Notes: generated by a model not told the origin, from the sequence alone. Positions 44,183 through 53,019 are shown, counted from the stretch's first letter. The stretch is 53,019 bases of DNA from a bacterium (GCA_017538365.1 JAFYIZ010000021.1:1-53019), one strand, 5' to 3'. Made by a program: numbers and translations.

Positions 44183-44287
44183 TTTTTTTTGCCCTGAAAT
44201 TTCCGTAACAGAATAAATTTGACAAGAAAAATCAACAGCTTAAAGTTTTCGCTGGTTATTTTACTGTTTTTTTTGAGGAGAAACATT

Positions 44288-45508
44288 ATGAAAAAATTTT
44301 CGTATTTTTTAACACTTGTTTTGGTGCTTTTCTTCGCAGTTTCATGCGGAGATTCCAAAAAAGAAGAGAAAGAGAAACCTGACACCGACGAAATTTCGGA
44401 TGAAGAACCTGCTGAAACCGACGGTGATGCTGAACCGGCTGAAACTGACGGCGATGCGGAAGAACCTGCAGACGATTCAGACAAAGAGCCTGCACCTGAA
44501 GCTGATCCGCTCAAATGCGAGGATTTCGCAGAAGGACTCAACGAAAATCTGTTCGTCGGCGAAGGCAAAAACGAACTTGCGCGTTCATTCTACCTGAGAC
44601 TGCCGGAAAATGTCGATTCAATGGAAAAAGTTCCCGTAATCTTTATTTACCACGGCTATGGAGACACAGCGAAAAATTTTGAAAGATTACTTTCAGGGTA
44701 TGTAAACAACGAAACAATGCCTTTCATCCTTGTAACCCCGGAATCGAGAGACGATATTTACGGATTTGATTTCACCAACTTCCCGCCGGCAGGTCTTGAG
44801 TGGGACATGATGAATCTCAAAGACGGAAGCGCTGAAGGCGACATGTTCGATGCAGTGCTCTCCTGCCTTGAAAAACGCTGGAACATTGATGAGAAGCACA
44901 TCCACGTTTCGGGTTTCTCGGCAGGTGCAATCACGGCAAACAGCCTGGGTCTCCAGAAACCTGAAAAAATTGCAAGCATTCTTTCTTACTCGGGCGCATA
45001 CTTCTCCGATGAAAAGAGTCTGGATGCTTTGGGAGACATCTATGGAATGAAAATCGGCGATTTCTTCAGCTGGCCTGAATTTGCCGAAGGACACACTAAA
45101 TATCCGCAGGTTTTCGTTTACGGAGACAAAGAGGCGGATTCATGGAGCATATCCGGAATATTCACGATTTATTTCAACCAGATGGGTCGTCTGGGCGCAG
45201 GCTATCTTTCTAAAAACGGTCATGATGCTATTCTCTGCGATCACGGTGTAGAAGATCATACTATCGCAGGAATAATGGAAAAAGATTTAATAAAATTCTT
45301 CCACGACCATCCTTTCGGAACAGTCGAGTCACCTTACCGCGAAGAGATGCCGGAAAACTTTGCAGAAATCTGCCACTTCTTCACGGAAGAGGACCTGGTC
45401 GATGAAGAAGAACCTGAAGAAAACGATGATACGGACACAAATCCTGAAGAACCGGAAATTCCGGACATTCCCGAAGAGGACTGCCTCTGGCTCCGCTGCA
45501 GCAATTAG
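44288..45508 (+). CDS. Alpha/beta-hydrolase (esterase-like) lipoprotein
   Basis: About 406 residues from ATG 44288, with GAGGAG nine bases upstream. Lipoprotein signal (LVLVLFFAVSCGDSK, Cys near 20), then an Asp/Glu/Pro/Thr-rich linker with repeats of PAETDGDAE. The hydrolase domain has VIFIYHGYGDTAKNF (oxyanion region), the nucleophile elbow HVSGFSAGAIT (Ser near residue 225), and a candidate His in DHGVEDH. It resembles feruloyl/acetyl-xylan esterase or PHB-depolymerase relatives. The C-terminal 40 residues are again acidic and end with two Cys. Confidence 0.8.
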   Translation: MKKFSYFLTLVLVLFFAVSCGDSKKEEKEKPDTDEISDEEPAETDGDAEPAETDGDAEEPADDSDKEPAPEADPLKCEDFAEGLNENLFVGEGKNELARSFYLRLPENVDSMEKVPVIFIYHGYGDTAKNFERLLSGYVNNETMPFILVTPESRDDIYGFDFTNFPPAGLEWDMMNLKDGSAEGDMFDAVLSCLEKRWNIDEKHIHVSGFSAGAITANSLGLQKPEKIASILSYSGAYFSDEKSLDALGDIYGMKIGDFFSWPEFAEGHTKYPQVFVYGDKEADSWSISGIFTIYFNQMGRLGAGYLSKNGHDAILCDHGVEDHTIAGIMEKDLIKFFHDHPFGTVESPYREEMPENFAEICHFFTEEDLVDEEEPEENDDTDTNPEEPEIPDIPEEDCLWLRCSN

Positions 45509-47018: not shown

Positions 47019-47606
47019 TTAAAACCTGTAACCTACTGCAACAGTAAGATCGGGATGAAACCCCATAAACGCATCGAAACCGAGTTTAAGTATCATCCCG
47101 TTTTTGAACACGAGATCTGTTCCCAAACCCCACGCTGGCAGCAGAATCAAAAAATAATCGCTCCAATAATATTCATCCACCTCATCCTTATCGAAAAGCA
47201 GCAGAAGTCCAAGCGAAACCCAGACACTAATCGATTTCAAATGCGGCTGATTCTTCAAATCTATATCTACAACCGCATTCGCCTGTAAAGCCAGTTCAAT
47301 GATGTTCCGCCAATACAAAGTCATATATCTGAGGTCAAAATCGAAACCCGTATAGAGATTCACTCCGCTGCTGTCGAAACGCTTTAAAAGGAAATCGATA
47401 TCCAAAGCGGCAGTCGTACGGAAAATGGAAAGACCCGATCCGACTCCCAAAGCGGGCTGGATATAAAATTTTTTCGGGGCTTCTTCAGTTTCAGCCGCAG
47501 TTTCAGAACTGCCGTTTTCAGCCGTTTTCACTTCATTTGATACAGATTCCGCCATGACAACGCTGAAAAAGAGGAACATTATCAAAAATATCGCGATTTT
47601 TTTCAT
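47019..47606 (-). CDS. Tandem beta-barrel paralogue, copy 9 (last of array)
   Basis: A 195-residue member of a family of nine. Signal peptide (MKKIAIFLIMFLFFSVVMA), acidic linker with TAENGSSETAAETEEAP, then FYIQPALGVGSG and about eight amphipathic strands ending GYRF. It belongs to the sub-group with the S-I-F/Y-R-x-T motif after the first strand. AGAGGGG beside the stop of copy 8 serves as its ribosome-binding site. Probable outer-membrane barrel; function unknown. Confidence 0.8.
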   Translation of the reverse strand: MKKIAIFLIMFLFFSVVMAESVSNEVKTAENGSSETAAETEEAPKKFYIQPALGVGSGLSIFRTTAALDIDFLLKRFDSSGVNLYTGFDFDLRYMTLYWRNIIELALQANAVVDIDLKNQPHLKSISVWVSLGLLLLFDKDEVDEYYWSDYFLILLPAWGLGTDLVFKNGMILKLGFDAFMGFHPDLTVAVGYRF

Positions 47607-47615
47607 AATACCCCT

Positions 47616-48290
47616 CTAAAACCTGTAACCCAAAGCAATTATAAGACTCAGATACAATCCGCGGAGATTGTGTTCGTCTTTTTCCACAGGCAGTCTGTCA
47701 AGCCCGATCTTTATCACCATGTCGTTGACAAAAATCATGCTCAAACCCGTTCTCCATGCAACAGCAGTGCCTTTCCATCCCGAATAATCTCTATACACCC
47801 AAAAGTTGAAGGCCGCTCCGATCGACATCCACAAACTTACATAATTAAGATTCGGATCTTTCTGCTTGAAATCGAAAGTGATATTTGCCTGAAGCGGAAC
47901 ACTGATAAACCGATCGTAAGGGGCACCTGTCATTCCTAAATCCAGACCAAGGTAGACGTTGTTTTTCCTTTTGGTTTGAGCAACGAGAAAATCAATATCC
48001 AAATTGAAGAGAGCACCGAAACCTATATTGCCTAATTCTATACCGAGAACCGGCTGGATATAGAAAAATTTCGGTTTTTCCTTAGTTTCCGGCGCAACTT
48101 CCTCTTCCTGTTTCTCAACTTTCGACTCTTTTTCAGGTTCTGGTTCGGGTTCAGGTTCAGGCTCAGGTTCCCTTTCTTCAAACAGGGTTATCGTGACATC
48201 TTCAATGGTGTATTCGCCGACCTGCACTTCTTCAGCAATCACAAAAACGGAAAAAAGAAAAACTGTGAGAAAGAGGAGCGTTTTTTTCAT
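47616..48290 (-). CDS. Tandem beta-barrel paralogue, copy 8
   Basis: About 224 residues from ATG 48290 (MKKTLLFLTVFLFSVFVIAE). The segment EYTIEDVTITLFEERE matches copy 1 almost exactly. Then a Glu-Pro repeat and a linker VEKQEEEVAPETKEKP shared with copy 6. The barrel begins FFYIQPVLGIELG and ends IALGYRF. It is a mosaic of other copies at its N-terminal third. Confidence 0.8.
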   Translation of the reverse strand: MKKTLLFLTVFLFSVFVIAEEVQVGEYTIEDVTITLFEEREPEPEPEPEPEPEKESKVEKQEEEVAPETKEKPKFFYIQPVLGIELGNIGFGALFNLDIDFLVAQTKRKNNVYLGLDLGMTGAPYDRFISVPLQANITFDFKQKDPNLNYVSLWMSIGAAFNFWVYRDYSGWKGTAVAWRTGLSMIFVNDMVIKIGLDRLPVEKDEHNLRGLYLSLIIALGYRF

Positions 48291-48297
48291 AAAGCAC

Positions 48298-49005
48298 CTA
48301 AAAGCGGTAACCAAGATTTGTATAAAGCCCCAGATAATAAAACAAAGTGTAGTCAACACCGATTTCAAGAACAATATTGTATTCAAACAAGAAATTCATG
48401 CCGATATTACATGACGGAAAAATAGCAAAAAGTTTATAATCGCCAAGAGGATTATACTCGCCTTCGTAATATAGATAGCTATAGAAGGCCCCTTCGACAT
48501 CACTGTAAGCATCCTCATGATGCAAAAAGGAGAAATCTACTCCCGCTGCCAAAAACAGTTCCAGCGATTTAAGCGAAGAACGGTAATTATACGGGAGAAA
48601 AGCAAAAACAACATTGAAATGAACAGGCACGCTCCACTCCCCTGCCAAATAACTACTGTGTCCTGCTAAATTTCCTACTAAATTACTGTTACTGTCTCCC
48701 GACAAACTATTACGGTGGAAATAAATAAGATTCATGTCGAATCCGAGATAAACATTCGTATTTTTCAATAGGAATTCCGCATCAATGCTTAATCTAGGCG
48801 CAACATTGGCCAATAAAGCAAACTCCATTCCGAATGTCGGCTGGATATAAATTTTTTTCAATTCTTCTTTCTTCTGCACGCTTTCGGTCTCAGAACTGTT
48901 TTGCACAGCAGCAGCACCGTTCTCCCCTTCATTCTTCATAACTTCTTCGCCGATCAAACAAAACAGCGGAAGAAAAATTATCAGAAACAGCAGGGATTTT
49001 CTCAT
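48298..49005 (-). CDS. Tandem beta-barrel paralogue, copy 7
   Basis: A 235-residue member with signal MRKSLLFLIIFLPLFCLIGE and linker NEGENGAAAVQNSSETESV. Barrel IYIQPTFGMEFA...NVYLGFDMNLIYFH...LGYRF. The longest loop (EDAYSDVEGAFYSYLYYEGE) sits between predicted strands five and six. AGGAG at the stop of copy 6 region precedes its ATG. Confidence 0.78.
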   Translation of the reverse strand: MRKSLLFLIIFLPLFCLIGEEVMKNEGENGAAAVQNSSETESVQKKEELKKIYIQPTFGMEFALLANVAPRLSIDAEFLLKNTNVYLGFDMNLIYFHRNSLSGDSNSNLVGNLAGHSSYLAGEWSVPVHFNVVFAFLPYNYRSSLKSLELFLAAGVDFSFLHHEDAYSDVEGAFYSYLYYEGEYNPLGDYKLFAIFPSCNIGMNFLFEYNIVLEIGVDYTLFYYLGLYTNLGYRF

Positions 49006-49014
49006 AAAAAGCTC

Positions 49015-49653
49015 CTAAAACCTGTATCCCAAACCGATGGTCGGCCTTATACCGATAACAAAAAAACTTTCCACAGCTATTTGTAAAACCAGCCCGTTTT
49101 CAAAAATAAGATCCGTTCCTACTCCCCATGTAATAACGGCGGCAGTCCACACAGGATTCAGTTCCTTCCCGCCGGAAACAGCTGCGGTAATATAGTTAAT
49201 ATCATAACGTCCGACACCGCCACCCAATGCAAACCACAAACTTACATATTCCGGGATTCTGTAAGGTGTATTTGTCTTAAAATCGAAGACTATTTTGGAT
49301 TGAATTGGTATTTCTACAGTTTTATATAGCGAATGAGCATATTTTACACCAAAATCGAATCCTACATAGATATTGTGTCTGCGTTTTATATTCACAACAA
49401 GGAAACTGAAATCGATATTCGTAGAAAAAAATCCGTAAATTACATCATCTTCTCCGCCTCTGCCGATTCCGGCTGCCATCATAGGCTGAACATGAAAAAA
49501 CTTTGGTTCTTTCACTTTATTTTCAAGCGGTTCTGTAACCTCTGGTACATTTTCACTCTGCGAATGAGGTTCTGACGGCTCGTTTTCAACTTCTTCAGCA
49601 ATCAAAATGCCGAAAAAGAAAAAAACTGTGAGAAAGAGGAGCGTTTTTTTCAT
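49015..49653 (-). CDS. Tandem beta-barrel paralogue, copy 6
   Basis: A 212-residue member: signal MKKTLLFLTVFFFFGILIAE, linker EPSEPHSQSENVPEVTEPLE, barrel FFHVQPMMAAGIGRGG...NIYVGFDFGVKYAH...GLGYRF. The signal is nearly the same as those of copies 4 and 5. Its ATG follows the stop of copy 5 by 7 bp with TAGGTG. Confidence 0.78.
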   Translation of the reverse strand: MKKTLLFLTVFFFFGILIAEEVENEPSEPHSQSENVPEVTEPLENKVKEPKFFHVQPMMAAGIGRGGEDDVIYGFFSTNIDFSFLVVNIKRRHNIYVGFDFGVKYAHSLYKTVEIPIQSKIVFDFKTNTPYRIPEYVSLWFALGGGVGRYDINYITAAVSGGKELNPVWTAAVITWGVGTDLIFENGLVLQIAVESFFVIGIRPTIGLGYRF

Positions 49654-49660
49654 AGATCAC

Positions 49661-50254
49661 CTAAAAGCGGTAACCAAAGCCGATTACAATATCCGGGAAA
49701 AAAATCATGTAATCATCTATGCCGAATTTAAAAACCATATTGTTCTTGAAAACCAGATCAAATCCCGTTCCCCAACCGATATAAGGATAAAACTTAATGT
49801 CATGTTCGTCATTTCTTCTTGACAGCAACATAGCGGGACCAACAGAAATTCTTACACTTACTGACCTTAATACCGGCTGATTCTCAAGCATAATATCAAA
49901 AACCGTGCTTGCTAAAACCGAAAAAGAAAGAAAAGGATTCTCTTCAATTGCATAGTCAGGCATAAGTTTCAAATCCGAATCCAATCCTAAATAAACATTA
50001 GTATTTTTGTTTACAGTACCTACAAGAAAACCGGCATCCAAAGCAAGTCCTGCACGAACAATATATCCCAGTCCAAAAGATATTTCAAAAGCAGGCTGAA
50101 TATAGAAAAAATCCGGTTTTTTATCCTTTTTCTGTAGGGCTTCAGATTCAGTTCTGATTTCAGTTTCCGTTGGCGCCGATTCTGTCTGCACTTCTTCTGC
50201 ACTCAAAAAAGTGAAAAAGAAAAAGACTGTGAGAAATAGAAGCGTTTTTTTCAT
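49661..50254 (-). CDS. Tandem beta-barrel paralogue, copy 5
   Basis: About 197 residues from ATG 50254 (MKKTLLFLTVFFFFTFLSAE). Linker with SAPTETEIRTESEAL, barrel FFYIQPAFEISFGLGY...NVYLGLDSDLKL...IGFGYRF. The start is chosen by homology to the other copies and by TAGGTG, which overlaps the preceding stop codon. Confidence 0.78.
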   Translation of the reverse strand: MKKTLLFLTVFFFFTFLSAEEVQTESAPTETEIRTESEALQKKDKKPDFFYIQPAFEISFGLGYIVRAGLALDAGFLVGTVNKNTNVYLGLDSDLKLMPDYAIEENPFLSFSVLASTVFDIMLENQPVLRSVSVRISVGPAMLLSRRNDEHDIKFYPYIGWGTGFDLVFKNNMVFKFGIDDYMIFFPDIVIGFGYRF

Positions 50255-50261
50255 AAAGCAC

Positions 50262-50939
50262 CTAAAACCGGTAACCGGCGAGAACGATAAAATCAAAGTT
50301 TCTGGTAGAACCGCTCACACCCAGTTTAATTACAAAATCATCCACTGAAATATTCAGCCCGAGTCCGCATACGAACCATGTAATATATTTAACAGCGTTA
50401 TGATAAGGGTTTGTGTCTTTGAGGTCGTTTTCCCATATCAAGTCCGGTCCTAATGCAAACCAGCCGCCTAAATGGGTCGAATATTGAGGATTGACCTGCG
50501 CATCAATAAAAAAAAGTGCCTGAATCGGAAGTTCAAAAACATGAGCATACATACTACTGTCATGATAATCGATAACCGGAGTATATTTGAATCCTATTTC
50601 TGTTCCCAAATAAACATCAACTGCTGTGTCAGCATTATTATTTATCAGGAAATAGGTATCCAACGCAGCAATAAAACTAAAATATCTATCCGATATTTCT
50701 ATTCCTCCAAGCGGCTGGATATAGAAAAATTCAGGTTTTTCCTTAGTTTCCGGCGCAACTTCCTCTTCCTGTTTCTCAACTTCCGGTTCTTTTTCCGGCT
50801 CGGGTTCAGCTTTTGACTCCTGCTCACTCCAACTTTCTCCAAGCAGGATCATTGAGCCGTCTTTGTAGACCTGCACTTCTTCCGCAATCAAAATGCCGAA
50901 AAAGAAAAAAACTGTGAGAAAGAGAAGCAGTTTTTTCAT
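50262..50939 (-). CDS. Tandem beta-barrel paralogue, copy 4
   Basis: A 225-residue member: signal MKKLLLFLTVFFFFGILIAE, a unique stretch VYKDGSMILLGESWSEQESK, then PEPEKEPEVEKQEEEVAPET, whose DNA (50734-50782) is identical over 49 bp to copy 8 (48073-48121). Barrel FFYIQPLGGIEISD...VLAGYRF. Confidence 0.78.
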   Translation of the reverse strand: MKKLLLFLTVFFFFGILIAEEVQVYKDGSMILLGESWSEQESKAEPEPEKEPEVEKQEEEVAPETKEKPEFFYIQPLGGIEISDRYFSFIAALDTYFLINNNADTAVDVYLGTEIGFKYTPVIDYHDSSMYAHVFELPIQALFFIDAQVNPQYSTHLGGWFALGPDLIWENDLKDTNPYHNAVKYITWFVCGLGLNISVDDFVIKLGVSGSTRNFDFIVLAGYRF

Positions 50940-50946
50940 AAAGCAC

Positions 50947-51570
50947 CTAAAAGCGGTAACCCAAAGTTACCGTAAGATCGGGGTATATTCCGCCGAAGCC
51001 GTCTATTCCCAATTTCAAAACTATATTTTTCTCAAACAGCAGATCGATTCCTATTCCCCATGCGGCGAAACATCTCAAAGAATCGTGGGCGTCATAATAA
51101 TAGTCCATCTCGCCGTTTTTGTCCGGACGCCGGTAATCTCCTCTGTAAAATATCAGATCGACTCCGGCGGAAAGCCACAATCCGACCGATTTAAGGACGA
51201 CGTTCGGTGTTGCGAAGTCAAAAACCGTGTTTGCCTGCAGAGGAAGCTCCACTTTCGGCGCAGGCCCTATCACCTGCTGGAGAACTATGTATCTGAAATC
51301 GAGATCAAGACCGACGTAAACATCCGATTTCGCAAGTTTTGCCACCAGGATATCCGCATCGAGCGAGATCGTAGGTCTGAAGATCGAAAATCCGGTCCCG
51401 AATCCGAATGCCGGCTGGATATAGAATATTTTCTGTTTTTCAGCTTTGCTTTCATTCTGAGATTCAGTTGCGGCGGCATTTTCAGGAGCGTTTTCCGCAT
51501 TCACGGCTTCTTCGGCAGACAGAGTGCCGAAAAGCATGAGAATCACTGAAAATATCAAGACCTTTCTCAT
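50947..51570 (-). CDS. Tandem beta-barrel paralogue, copy 3
   Basis: A 207-residue member: signal MRKVLIFSVILMLFGTLSAE, linker NAENAPENAAATESQNESKA, barrel FYIQPAFGFGTGFSIFRPT...DVYVGLDLDFRY...VELPLQANTVFDF...TLGYRF. With copies 1 and 9 it forms the GFSIFRPT sub-group. AGGAG inside TAGGAGC, overlapping the stop of copy 2, is its ribosome-binding site. Confidence 0.8.
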   Translation of the reverse strand: MRKVLIFSVILMLFGTLSAEEAVNAENAPENAAATESQNESKAEKQKIFYIQPAFGFGTGFSIFRPTISLDADILVAKLAKSDVYVGLDLDFRYIVLQQVIGPAPKVELPLQANTVFDFATPNVVLKSVGLWLSAGVDLIFYRGDYRRPDKNGEMDYYYDAHDSLRCFAAWGIGIDLLFEKNIVLKLGIDGFGGIYPDLTVTLGYRF

Positions 51571-51578
51571 AAAAGCTC

Positions 51579-52217
51579 CTAAAAACGATACCCGAAAGCT
51601 AAACTCAAAATAGGATATTTCCCTTTGAACGAATTAAATCCCGCCGTAAAAACGATATTATAATCCAATATGGCATCGAGACCTATGCCCCATGCGGCAT
51701 CGACTCTGGTCAGACCGTCATATTTGTAGTTGTCTTTTCTAAGATGTATCTCTTCGACATAAACGCTTTCGTACTCTCCTTCAAAAACAAGATCGGCTCC
51801 GAGAGTGATCCATAAAGATAGCGTATCGATATGGGGAGCGCGCTGCTTAAAGTTGAAAGAGCTCTTCATCTGAAGCGGAAGATATATATCATATACCCTG
51901 TCCGTGTTCGTCATAGAGCGCCCGAATCTGAAATCGGCCTTGAATCCCAGATAGACGTCTTTTCCTTTTCCTAAGTGTTTTACGCGGAAATCAGCGCTCA
52001 TCCCGAGGTCGATCCCCAAGCCGTAAAACCCTATTGAGGACAAAAAATAGAAAAAACCGGCAGGGTTGTCAGCCTGTTCTTCACCGCTGCAGCAGGTACT
52101 TTCCTGCTTTTCCGAAATTTCTCTGCTTTCCTGTGCCGCATCTTCTGCATACAATGAGAAAAGAAGAAAAAACATCATAAAAAGCAGTGATATTTTTTTC
52201 ACGAACCCGACACTCAT
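51579..52217 (-). CDS. Tandem beta-barrel paralogue, copy 2
   Basis: About 212 residues from ATG 52217, 2 bp after the TGA of copy 1. An in-frame GTG at 52202 (VKKISLLFMMFFLLFSLYA) matches the usual M-K-K start of the family and is an equal alternative. The linker holds a Cys pair (ESTCCSGEE). Barrel FFYFLSSIGFYGLG...DVYLGFKADFRF...LPLQMKSSFNF...AFGYRF. It is the most divergent copy. Confidence 0.78.
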   Translation of the reverse strand: MSVGFVKKISLLFMMFFLLFSLYAEDAAQESREISEKQESTCCSGEEQADNPAGFFYFLSSIGFYGLGIDLGMSADFRVKHLGKGKDVYLGFKADFRFGRSMTNTDRVYDIYLPLQMKSSFNFKQRAPHIDTLSLWITLGADLVFEGEYESVYVEEIHLRKDNYKYDGLTRVDAAWGIGLDAILDYNIVFTAGFNSFKGKYPILSLAFGYRF

Positions 52218-52219
52218 GA

Positions 52220-52948
52220 TCAAAACCTGTAGCCTACGGCAAATGTACAGTCGGGAGCAAGCGCCCACAAACTGTCCAATCCCAATTTCAGTACAAGATA
52301 GTTCCTGAACACCAGATCGACTCCGGTTCCCCATGCAACGTTATATTCCACATCTGCATCGAACTTTGTTCCGACATCATTTATGTCATGACCGTATCCC
52401 ATCTCAAGTCCTAGCGATATCCAGAGGCTTACCGATCTTATATACGGATTATTTCCGGTCATAACGTCAAAAACTCCAGACGCCTTAACGAAAAAATACA
52501 ATATAGGATCATAACGGTCAGTAATACTGTCACGCGGCCACCAAAGATCGAGATCCAACCCGACATAATAGTTGACTTCCGGAGTATGAGCAACAAGAAA
52601 ACCGGCATCAATAGCGACAGTCGGCCGATATATTGAAAATCCGCTGCCGAATCCGAGAGCGGGCTGGAAATAGAAAAATTTTGGTTTTCCACCGTTTTCA
52701 TTTGAATTATCACAGTTGCATGAGCTGTTTTCCGCTTGCGGTACAACTTCCTTTTCCGGCTCTTTTTCCGGTTCTGGTTCAGGTTCTTTTTCAGGTTCAG
52801 GTTCTTTTTCAGGTTCGGGCTCAGGTTCCCTTTCTTCAAACAGGGTTATCGTGACATCTTCAATGGTGTATTCGCCGGCCTGCACTTCTTCAGCAATCAC
52901 AAAAACGGAAAAAAGAAAAACTGTGAGAAAGAGAAGCAGTTTTTTCAT
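52220..52948 (-). CDS. Tandem beta-barrel paralogue, copy 1 (promoter-proximal)
   Basis: A 242-residue member: signal MKKLLLFLTVFLFSVFVIAE, EYTIEDVTITLFEERE, then a long Glu-Pro-Lys repeat (PEPEKEPEPEKEPEPEPEK), a CNC-containing linker (ENSSCNCDNSNENGG) and barrel FFYFQPALGFGSGFSIYRPT ending AVGYRF. DNA of its first 115 or so bp is nearly identical to copy 8. It is the first complete copy transcribed within the window. Its upstream 71 bp reach the window edge. Confidence 0.8.
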   Translation of the reverse strand: MKKLLLFLTVFLFSVFVIAEEVQAGEYTIEDVTITLFEEREPEPEPEKEPEPEKEPEPEPEKEPEKEVVPQAENSSCNCDNSNENGGKPKFFYFQPALGFGSGFSIYRPTVAIDAGFLVAHTPEVNYYVGLDLDLWWPRDSITDRYDPILYFFVKASGVFDVMTGNNPYIRSVSLWISLGLEMGYGHDINDVGTKFDADVEYNVAWGTGVDLVFRNYLVLKLGLDSLWALAPDCTFAVGYRF

Positions 52949-52980
52949 AAAGCACCTGCAACTACCTATTGAACAGATTT

Positions 52981-53007
52981 TTTATACATAATCATGATAA
53001 AATTCAA
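52981..53007 (-). promoter_or_regulatory. Weak promoter candidate for the beta-barrel array
   Basis: Minus-strand TTGAAT (53007-53002), 15 bp, TATAAA (52986-52981), about 33 bp before the first array gene. The spacer is short. More copies could lie beyond the window, so this may be an internal region. Confidence 0.25.
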
Positions 53008-53019
53008 GGATTTTTGGGC

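Follow-up and report, generated by a model that had tools for sequence, protein, structure and literature searches.

A tandem array of small outer-membrane barrel genes, probably diversified by cassette exchange, in an uncultured ruminant-gut genus

The window analysed here is a stretch of 53,019 nucleotides (GCA_017538365.1 JAFYIZ010000021.1:1-53019) that forms the whole of one contig, C20, in the genome of an uncultured ruminant-gut bacterium of candidate phylum UBP6, genus UBA1177; rumen UBP6 genomes have been assigned to this genus (PMC7820578). At 47019-52948 on the (-) strand it carries nine adjacent genes of one protein family, separated by gaps of 2-9 bp. We describe this array, its continuation on a second contig (C17) and its counterparts in related genomes, all of them in draft form, with metagenomes as the source of the named ones. 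Barrel types were lettered by identity clustering and arrays were then read in gene order. The start sites of genes 2, 5 and 8 were corrected to those given below.

52979..53008, (-) strand: promoter-like site CTTGAATTTT-N10-TGTATAAAAA, heading the nine-gene unit of the window
52949..53019, (-) strand: 3' part of a ~243-bp spacer repeated at cassette boundaries; C20 ends inside it and C17 ends in its 5' part
52220..52948, (-) strand: gene 9, type D, lead of cassette D-I-J, 242 aa; signal peptide, constant leader (GEYTIEDVTITLFEERE and EP repeats) and predicted 8-strand barrel
51579..52217, (-) strand: gene 8, type I, second in D-I-J, 212 aa; its ATG lies 2 nt past the gene 9 stop
50947..51570, (-) strand: gene 7, type J, last in D-I-J, 207 aa; its 3' end is the cassette junction GGTTACCGCTTTTAGGTG
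50935..50961, (-) strand: cassette junction GGTTACCGNTTTTAGGTG-N4-ATGAA, comprising the stop of one gene, a ribosome-binding site (RBS) and the next start; further copies at 50250-50276, 49649-49675 and 48286-48312
50262..50939, (-) strand: gene 6, type S, 225 aa, with a variant of the lead-type leader (EVQVYKDGSMILLGE)
49661..50254, (-) strand: gene 5, type K, 197 aa; the counterpart in genome G014 has the full constant leader
49015..49653, (-) strand: gene 4, type E, first in E-F, 212 aa
48298..49005, (-) strand: gene 3, type F, last in E-F, 235 aa; long L2 loop
47616..48290, (-) strand: gene 2, type C, lead of C-B with constant leader, 224 aa
47019..47606, (-) strand: gene 1, type B, last in C-B and in the whole array, 195 aa; studied with AlphaFold2 and Foldseek

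The nine proteins share one layout: a hydrophobic N-terminus, then an acidic linker of ~25-70 residues and a barrel of ~150 residues that ends in GYRF. By eye, the N-termini of most members are hydrophobic and then run into A-E or A-Q. A profile built from the nine window genes recovered 11 more genes on a second contig of this genome, C17, with a best E of 1.9e-70; these had not been part of the profile, and therefore the family resemblance of the nine is not due to chance. An earlier, sequence-only reading of the window had proposed such a same-strand run of nine related genes, and it is borne out. The C-terminal GYRF that it named is invariant (9/9 window genes) and occurs in nearly all relatives as well, whilst its N-V-Y-L-G and S-V-S-L-W motifs proved to be majority features and not universal ones. 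The acidic or EP linker is likewise present but is not the single variable element that had been described: genes that lead a cassette share a constant leader, made up of the signal peptide, GEYTIEDVTITLFEERE and EP repeats, which the others lack. The acidic EP linker would act as a flexible periplasmic spacer.

The edge of the contig cuts through a longer array. C17 ends past its eleventh family gene, and its last 24 bases are an exact match to the first 24 of the reverse complement of C20. Moreover, the spacer in the joined C17/C20 sequence can be aligned over its whole length to three complete ~243-bp copies. Because the contigs overlap and the joined spacer matches intact copies, the array, as reconstructed, is one of ~20 genes and not the nine first counted in a window that stops at a contig edge. 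In the joined sequence the barrel types run A L M N O P Q R X G T on C17 and D I J S K E F C B on C20. The array lies between hisS and a 5'-nucleotidase-like lipoprotein gene on C17 and mpg and adk on C20; all four flank genes surround a single continuous array in G014, and G012 agrees for those flanks that are present. At 44219-45508 the window also carries a gene for a putative lipoprotein that combines an Asp/Glu-rich linker with an esterase-like domain (Abhydrolase_2), and this gene is found close to the array in several other species too.

The family is present in 15/15 genomes of the genus, with array sizes from 1 to ~21 genes: ~21 in G014 (one broken), 18 in G012, 6 in G004 and 1 each in G003 and G007. 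Other genera of the same taxonomic family gave few, weak matches. Arrays in relatives, for which the sequence-only reading had suggested looking, were thus found, and among the genomes searched the multi-gene form is a feature of UBA1177. Distant single relatives also occur elsewhere in the genome of the window, G000 (C37:52985, C40:25127, C45:8751), and that on C45 comes near the Pfam OMP_b-brl profile (PF13505; 21.4 bits, cut-off 28.7). Frames of 440-500 aa at G004:C73:3237, G004:C65:77642, G014:C26:1001 and other loci align in part to the barrel profile (E 1e-19 to 1e-13) and are perhaps multi-domain outer-membrane proteins of the genus.

About eight strands had been counted by eye, and AlphaFold2 models of genes 1 and 9 each contain exactly eight. 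The gene 1 model has a mean predicted local distance difference test score (pLDDT) of 82; for gene 9 the mean is 72, the barrel being mostly >90 and the disordered linker <50. Foldseek matched the barrels of OmpA, NspA, OmpX and Ail best, and also those of PagL and OprF, at E 1e-6 to 1e-3, with moderate TM-scores of 0.4-0.7 depending on the target, and therefore the result is a match of fold class and not a family assignment. Alternation of inward and outward hydrophobicity is seen across the family in most strands, and is weakest in strands 6 and 8. Loops L2 (1-24 aa) and L3 (6-30 aa) are the most variable, whilst the last periplasmic turn, T3, is almost constant, which agrees with a conserved core bearing variable loops. 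Omp85/BamA genes occur in the same genome. Together with the C-terminal aromatic signal for the beta-barrel assembly machinery (BAM) contained in GYRF, the models and Foldseek matches support the outer-membrane barrel already suspected, an eight-stranded protein of the OmpA/OmpX/NspA/Ail fold class. PagL was among the Foldseek matches; however, the residues invariant in all nine barrels are Gly, Tyr, Arg and Phe positions without a conserved catalytic set, and we rejected a PagL-like enzyme.

That no family had been recognised from the sequence holds against the libraries. Pfam and NCBIfam scans gave no curated assignment for any array member: the cut-offs of OMP_b-brl (PF13505) and OmpW (PF03922) were not reached (best for array members OmpW, E 0.06), the P28/Msp2 profile PF01617 had no match, and the low-E NCBIfam matches sit on the linker, under cut-offs. 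A PDB sequence search returned no match for the array proteins, and no account of this barrel family was found in the open-licence literature.

When the arrays are read in gene order, the same blocks recur: L-M, N-O-P, Q-R, D-I-J, E-F, C-B, G-V or G-T and S-K, with U-Y seen once. The order in G012 is A UY CB GV DIJ EF LM QR SK, and in G014 it is Z aA A CB CB LM NOP QR aB (with a broken gene) EF CB K. Block order and content therefore vary by species, whilst cassettes of 2-3 genes are kept as units. Gene adjacencies common to different genomes number 29; in 2000 shuffles the mean was 5.0 and the highest count 13. Most blocks open with a constant-leader gene, and only 1 neighbouring pair of such genes was observed where 7.7 were expected (P = 1e-4); this pair, X-G, is separated by a spacer with a promoter-like site. 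Gene A, whose linker has ~100 residues, opens the array in most species, and the C-B cassette follows it in metagenome-assembled genomes (MAGs) of different studies (RUG.391, UBA1177 and RGIG2292, the last from goat duodenum). Partners can change: type G has V after it in two species and T in two more; K comes after S in two species but is solitary in G014, where it carries a lead leader. In G013, gene A and the G-V cassette lie on two separate long contigs (L072 and L073), so cassettes can sit apart from gene A. A gene for an AAA_14/DUF4143 ATPase (G014 L068:16405-17757) lies between the last two barrel genes of G014 in place of the 3' part of the ~243-bp spacer, of which the first part and the final AGGTAGTTGCAGGTG are retained. 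Broken copies, namely a V-like gene split over two frames (G014 L068:13051-13670) and a C-type gene with a damaged leader (G001 L069:5307-5855), suggest continuing gain and loss.

We then compared divergence within cassettes to that of the surrounding backbone, expressed as synonymous divergence (dS). Between G012 and G014 the backbone around the array has a median dS of 0.72 and a minimum of 0.30 (11 genes), and gene A a dS of 0.96. The cassette barrels of the same pair give 0.01 (Q), 0.04 (R), 0.04 (F), 0.07 (M), 0.09 (E), 0.15 (B), 0.15 (C) and 0.24 (L). Between G000 and G012 the backbone median is 0.79 and the minimum 0.35; E, D, I, R, K and Q fall at 0.18-0.28, and B, C, G, L and M exceed the backbone, as expected of old alleles. 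Barrels of a single cassette can be 97-100% identical in DNA across species whose backbone genes are far more divergent. Such low dS is not explicable by protein constraint alone, and therefore either the cassettes have recently moved between lineages or the assemblies are chimeric, the latter being an unlikely source.

The positions at which this similarity begins and ends are informative. Along matched cassettes, identity is mostly ~0.4-0.5 upstream (unrelated), ~0.8 in the lead signal peptide, 0.5-0.9 in the linker and 0.9-1.0 through the barrel and following genes, before dropping again at the next signal peptide. Amongst pairs with barrel identity >=0.85, the signal-peptide deficit in identity is 0.116 for lead genes and 0.011 for internal genes (P = 1.6e-9 over pairs, among which sequences recur, and P = 9e-5 when each barrel type contributes a single value). 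Leaders are more alike across different barrels within a genome (0.840) than for the same barrel between genomes (0.786), and a search with the leader peptide matched array genes only. Because identity breaks down nowhere but in the leader of the lead gene, these comparisons place the left crossover in that leader and the right crossover in the stop, RBS and leader of the next cassette. The junction also shows in synonymous codon choice: the Arg codon of GYRF is CGN in 31/34 cassette-ending genes and AGR in 28/32 others. The genome contains the strict junction 5 times, 4 of them in the window and the fifth on C17, and a reversed control pattern has 0 matches. All 5/5 strict copies are confined to the array, which disposes of a genome-wide element; a longer junction pattern was too strict, with only six copies among relatives.

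The pattern CTTGAATTTT-N10/11-TGTATAAAAA has 3 matches in the 2.3-Mb genome, before genes A, G and D, whilst a reversed control pattern has 0. From its form and positions we infer that this site is a promoter; a generic promoter and terminator scan gave no excess over shuffles. Because a promoter-like site precedes A, G and D, the array likely comprises three transcription units of nine, two and nine genes, of which the window would hold the last. Within barrel types the ratio of nonsynonymous to synonymous substitution rates (dN/dS) is 0.20 for the core and rises to 0.35 in the predicted outer loops. By these ratios the array genes are maintained under purifying selection, with the loops more relaxed, and dN/dS within barrel types revealed no positive selection on loops. 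The suggestion that a long single-family array reflects selection for diversity is upheld for the outcome, the diversity arising by way of cassette exchange between species and not by point mutation. Phase variation was rejected: the longest homopolymers in the window and the G012 genes are 8 nt, and because the linker repeats have periods of 6 or multiples, slippage would alter linker length and not frame. We also rejected a phage or plasmid vehicle, no relative having been found in IMG/VR (one query), phage records or plasmids.

Taken together, these data favour a repertoire of small (~150-residue) eight-stranded outer-membrane barrels that is transcribed as a small number of multi-gene units and gains its diversity through homologous exchange of cassettes of 2-3 genes, a reading to which we assign a probability of roughly 0.6. 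The gene orders and divergences show an array of ~20 genes in which cassettes are units reordered between species, some of them near-identical despite diverged backbones. Homologous recombination between the repeated leaders or junctions is strongly supported by the sequence as the simplest account. The barrels would be exported by the Sec route and inserted by BAM, with L2 and L3 exposed, and many would be expressed together, not singly. The repeated leader and junction would supply homology for RecA-type recombination, by which whole cassettes could be exchanged, duplicated or deleted with reading frames intact. A variable-surface role, by analogy with Ehrlichia P28, is likely, and the benefit may be a changing surface towards phages, grazing protists, host immunoglobulin A (IgA) or rumen ligands; we hold this role less certain than the mechanism, as phages, protists, antibodies or ligands could each be the agent. 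In a broader form, which we regard as evenly balanced, this candidate phylum would assemble species-specific outer-membrane sets, in frame and in operon, from a shared pool by means of the repeated junction, which reaches from the final codons of a gene across the RBS into the signal peptide and leader of its successor; the outcome would be integron-like but reached through homologous recombination in coding sequence.

Several points weigh against this interpretation. The array and its barrels are known here from sequence and predicted models, and a chimeric join within a repeat-rich array is possible in any single draft genome. The comparison of Arg codons in GYRF is not fully independent, its cassette-end and internal labels having come from adjacency in the same data after junctions were inspected. 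The diversity benefit is indirect, dN/dS giving no sign of positive selection. No recombinase was seen, although integrase and attC sites were not specifically searched for, and no strain-level switching was seen among the draft genomes compared.

Other explanations share parts of this evidence. Were each barrel a narrow channel or binder for a different rumen oligosaccharide or solute, the array would be a nutrient-uptake set and its exchange metabolic instead of surface escape. The rumen habitat fits such a set, as does purifying selection on all copies, expected if each does its own job; however, OmpA/OmpX-type eight-stranded barrels are usually too narrow as nutrient pores and the cassettes contain no transport or hydrolase genes, and we consider this rather unlikely. 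The passing on of pairs and triplets as units could instead mean that the two or three barrels of a cassette build one complex, their linkage being kept since the members must match. The positions of the crossover sequences explain the units equally well, and some types stand alone or are re-partnered (G-V and G-T; S-K and the lone K of G014), so that hetero-oligomers seem distinctly improbable.

A third account is tandem duplication and decay of the ordinary kind, in which the apparent transfer of cassettes arose through chimeric assembly or binning of metagenome data. It draws on the draft state of the genomes, whose contigs break at repeats, the end of the window included. Yet C-B follows gene A in MAGs of separate studies, the same cassettes lie within long contigs with differing neighbours and leaders, and flanking genes on the same contigs keep their full species divergence; we give this account very little credence. 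Least credible of all is an antigen archive of the Anaplasma msp2 or Borrelia vls type, with a single expression site and silent donors. The constant 5' and variable 3' parts do resemble expression-site designs (PMC4534519), but nearly all copies are complete, with start, RBS-like sequence and stop, and lie mostly 2-17 bp apart in large units with several promoter-like sites; all are under purifying selection (dN/dS 0.20-0.35), and broken copies are only the single ones of G014 and G001.

The closest likeness in arrangement is the p28-omp/map1 locus of Ehrlichia (PF01617, Surface_Ag_2), a single chromosomal site at which 17-22 paralogues, most of them complete, lie in tandem and encode small outer-membrane beta-barrels (PMC4534519, PMC7971322). 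Both systems hold many complete barrel paralogues in one tandem array, but the array proteins here have no sequence match to PF01617. The p28 genes are described in PMC4534519 as having 200-600-bp spacers and functional promoters, whereas the genes here lie mostly 2-17 bp apart within a small number of large units. The descriptions of Ehrlichia consulted contain no shuffling of cassettes of 2-3 genes from species to species by way of crossovers in a shared leader. In Anaplasma msp2/p44 an outer-membrane protein is likewise varied by recombination beside a conserved 5' part; there, as PMC4534519 describes, functional pseudogenes recombine as donors into one expression site, whereas the copies here are complete and selectively maintained. 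The OmpA transmembrane domain, OmpX/Ail and NspA are alike in fold and size, with both chain ends periplasmic in the predicted topology, and differ in showing no significant sequence similarity and in lacking the acidic EP linker before the barrel and the tandem cassette array. As in integrons, cassettes have a single orientation, with order and content varying among relatives. In contrast to integrons, all cassettes here code for members of one barrel family and open with a homologous leader, and the boundaries resemble homologous crossovers in coding sequence; a tyrosine recombinase and attC were not specifically sought.

Tick-borne pathogens provide the best-known large tandem families of outer-membrane barrels, with host immunity as the accepted driver. 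The array described here, built from a barrel family new to the curated libraries searched, belongs to an uncultured and apparently commensal gut genus. Its rebuilding can be read directly, as blocks of 2-3 genes swapped between species through a shared leader, and each species seems to reassemble its own surface-protein set from a shared pool. This offers a testable model of surface variation in gut bacteria, with defined junctions that are traceable in metagenome reads.

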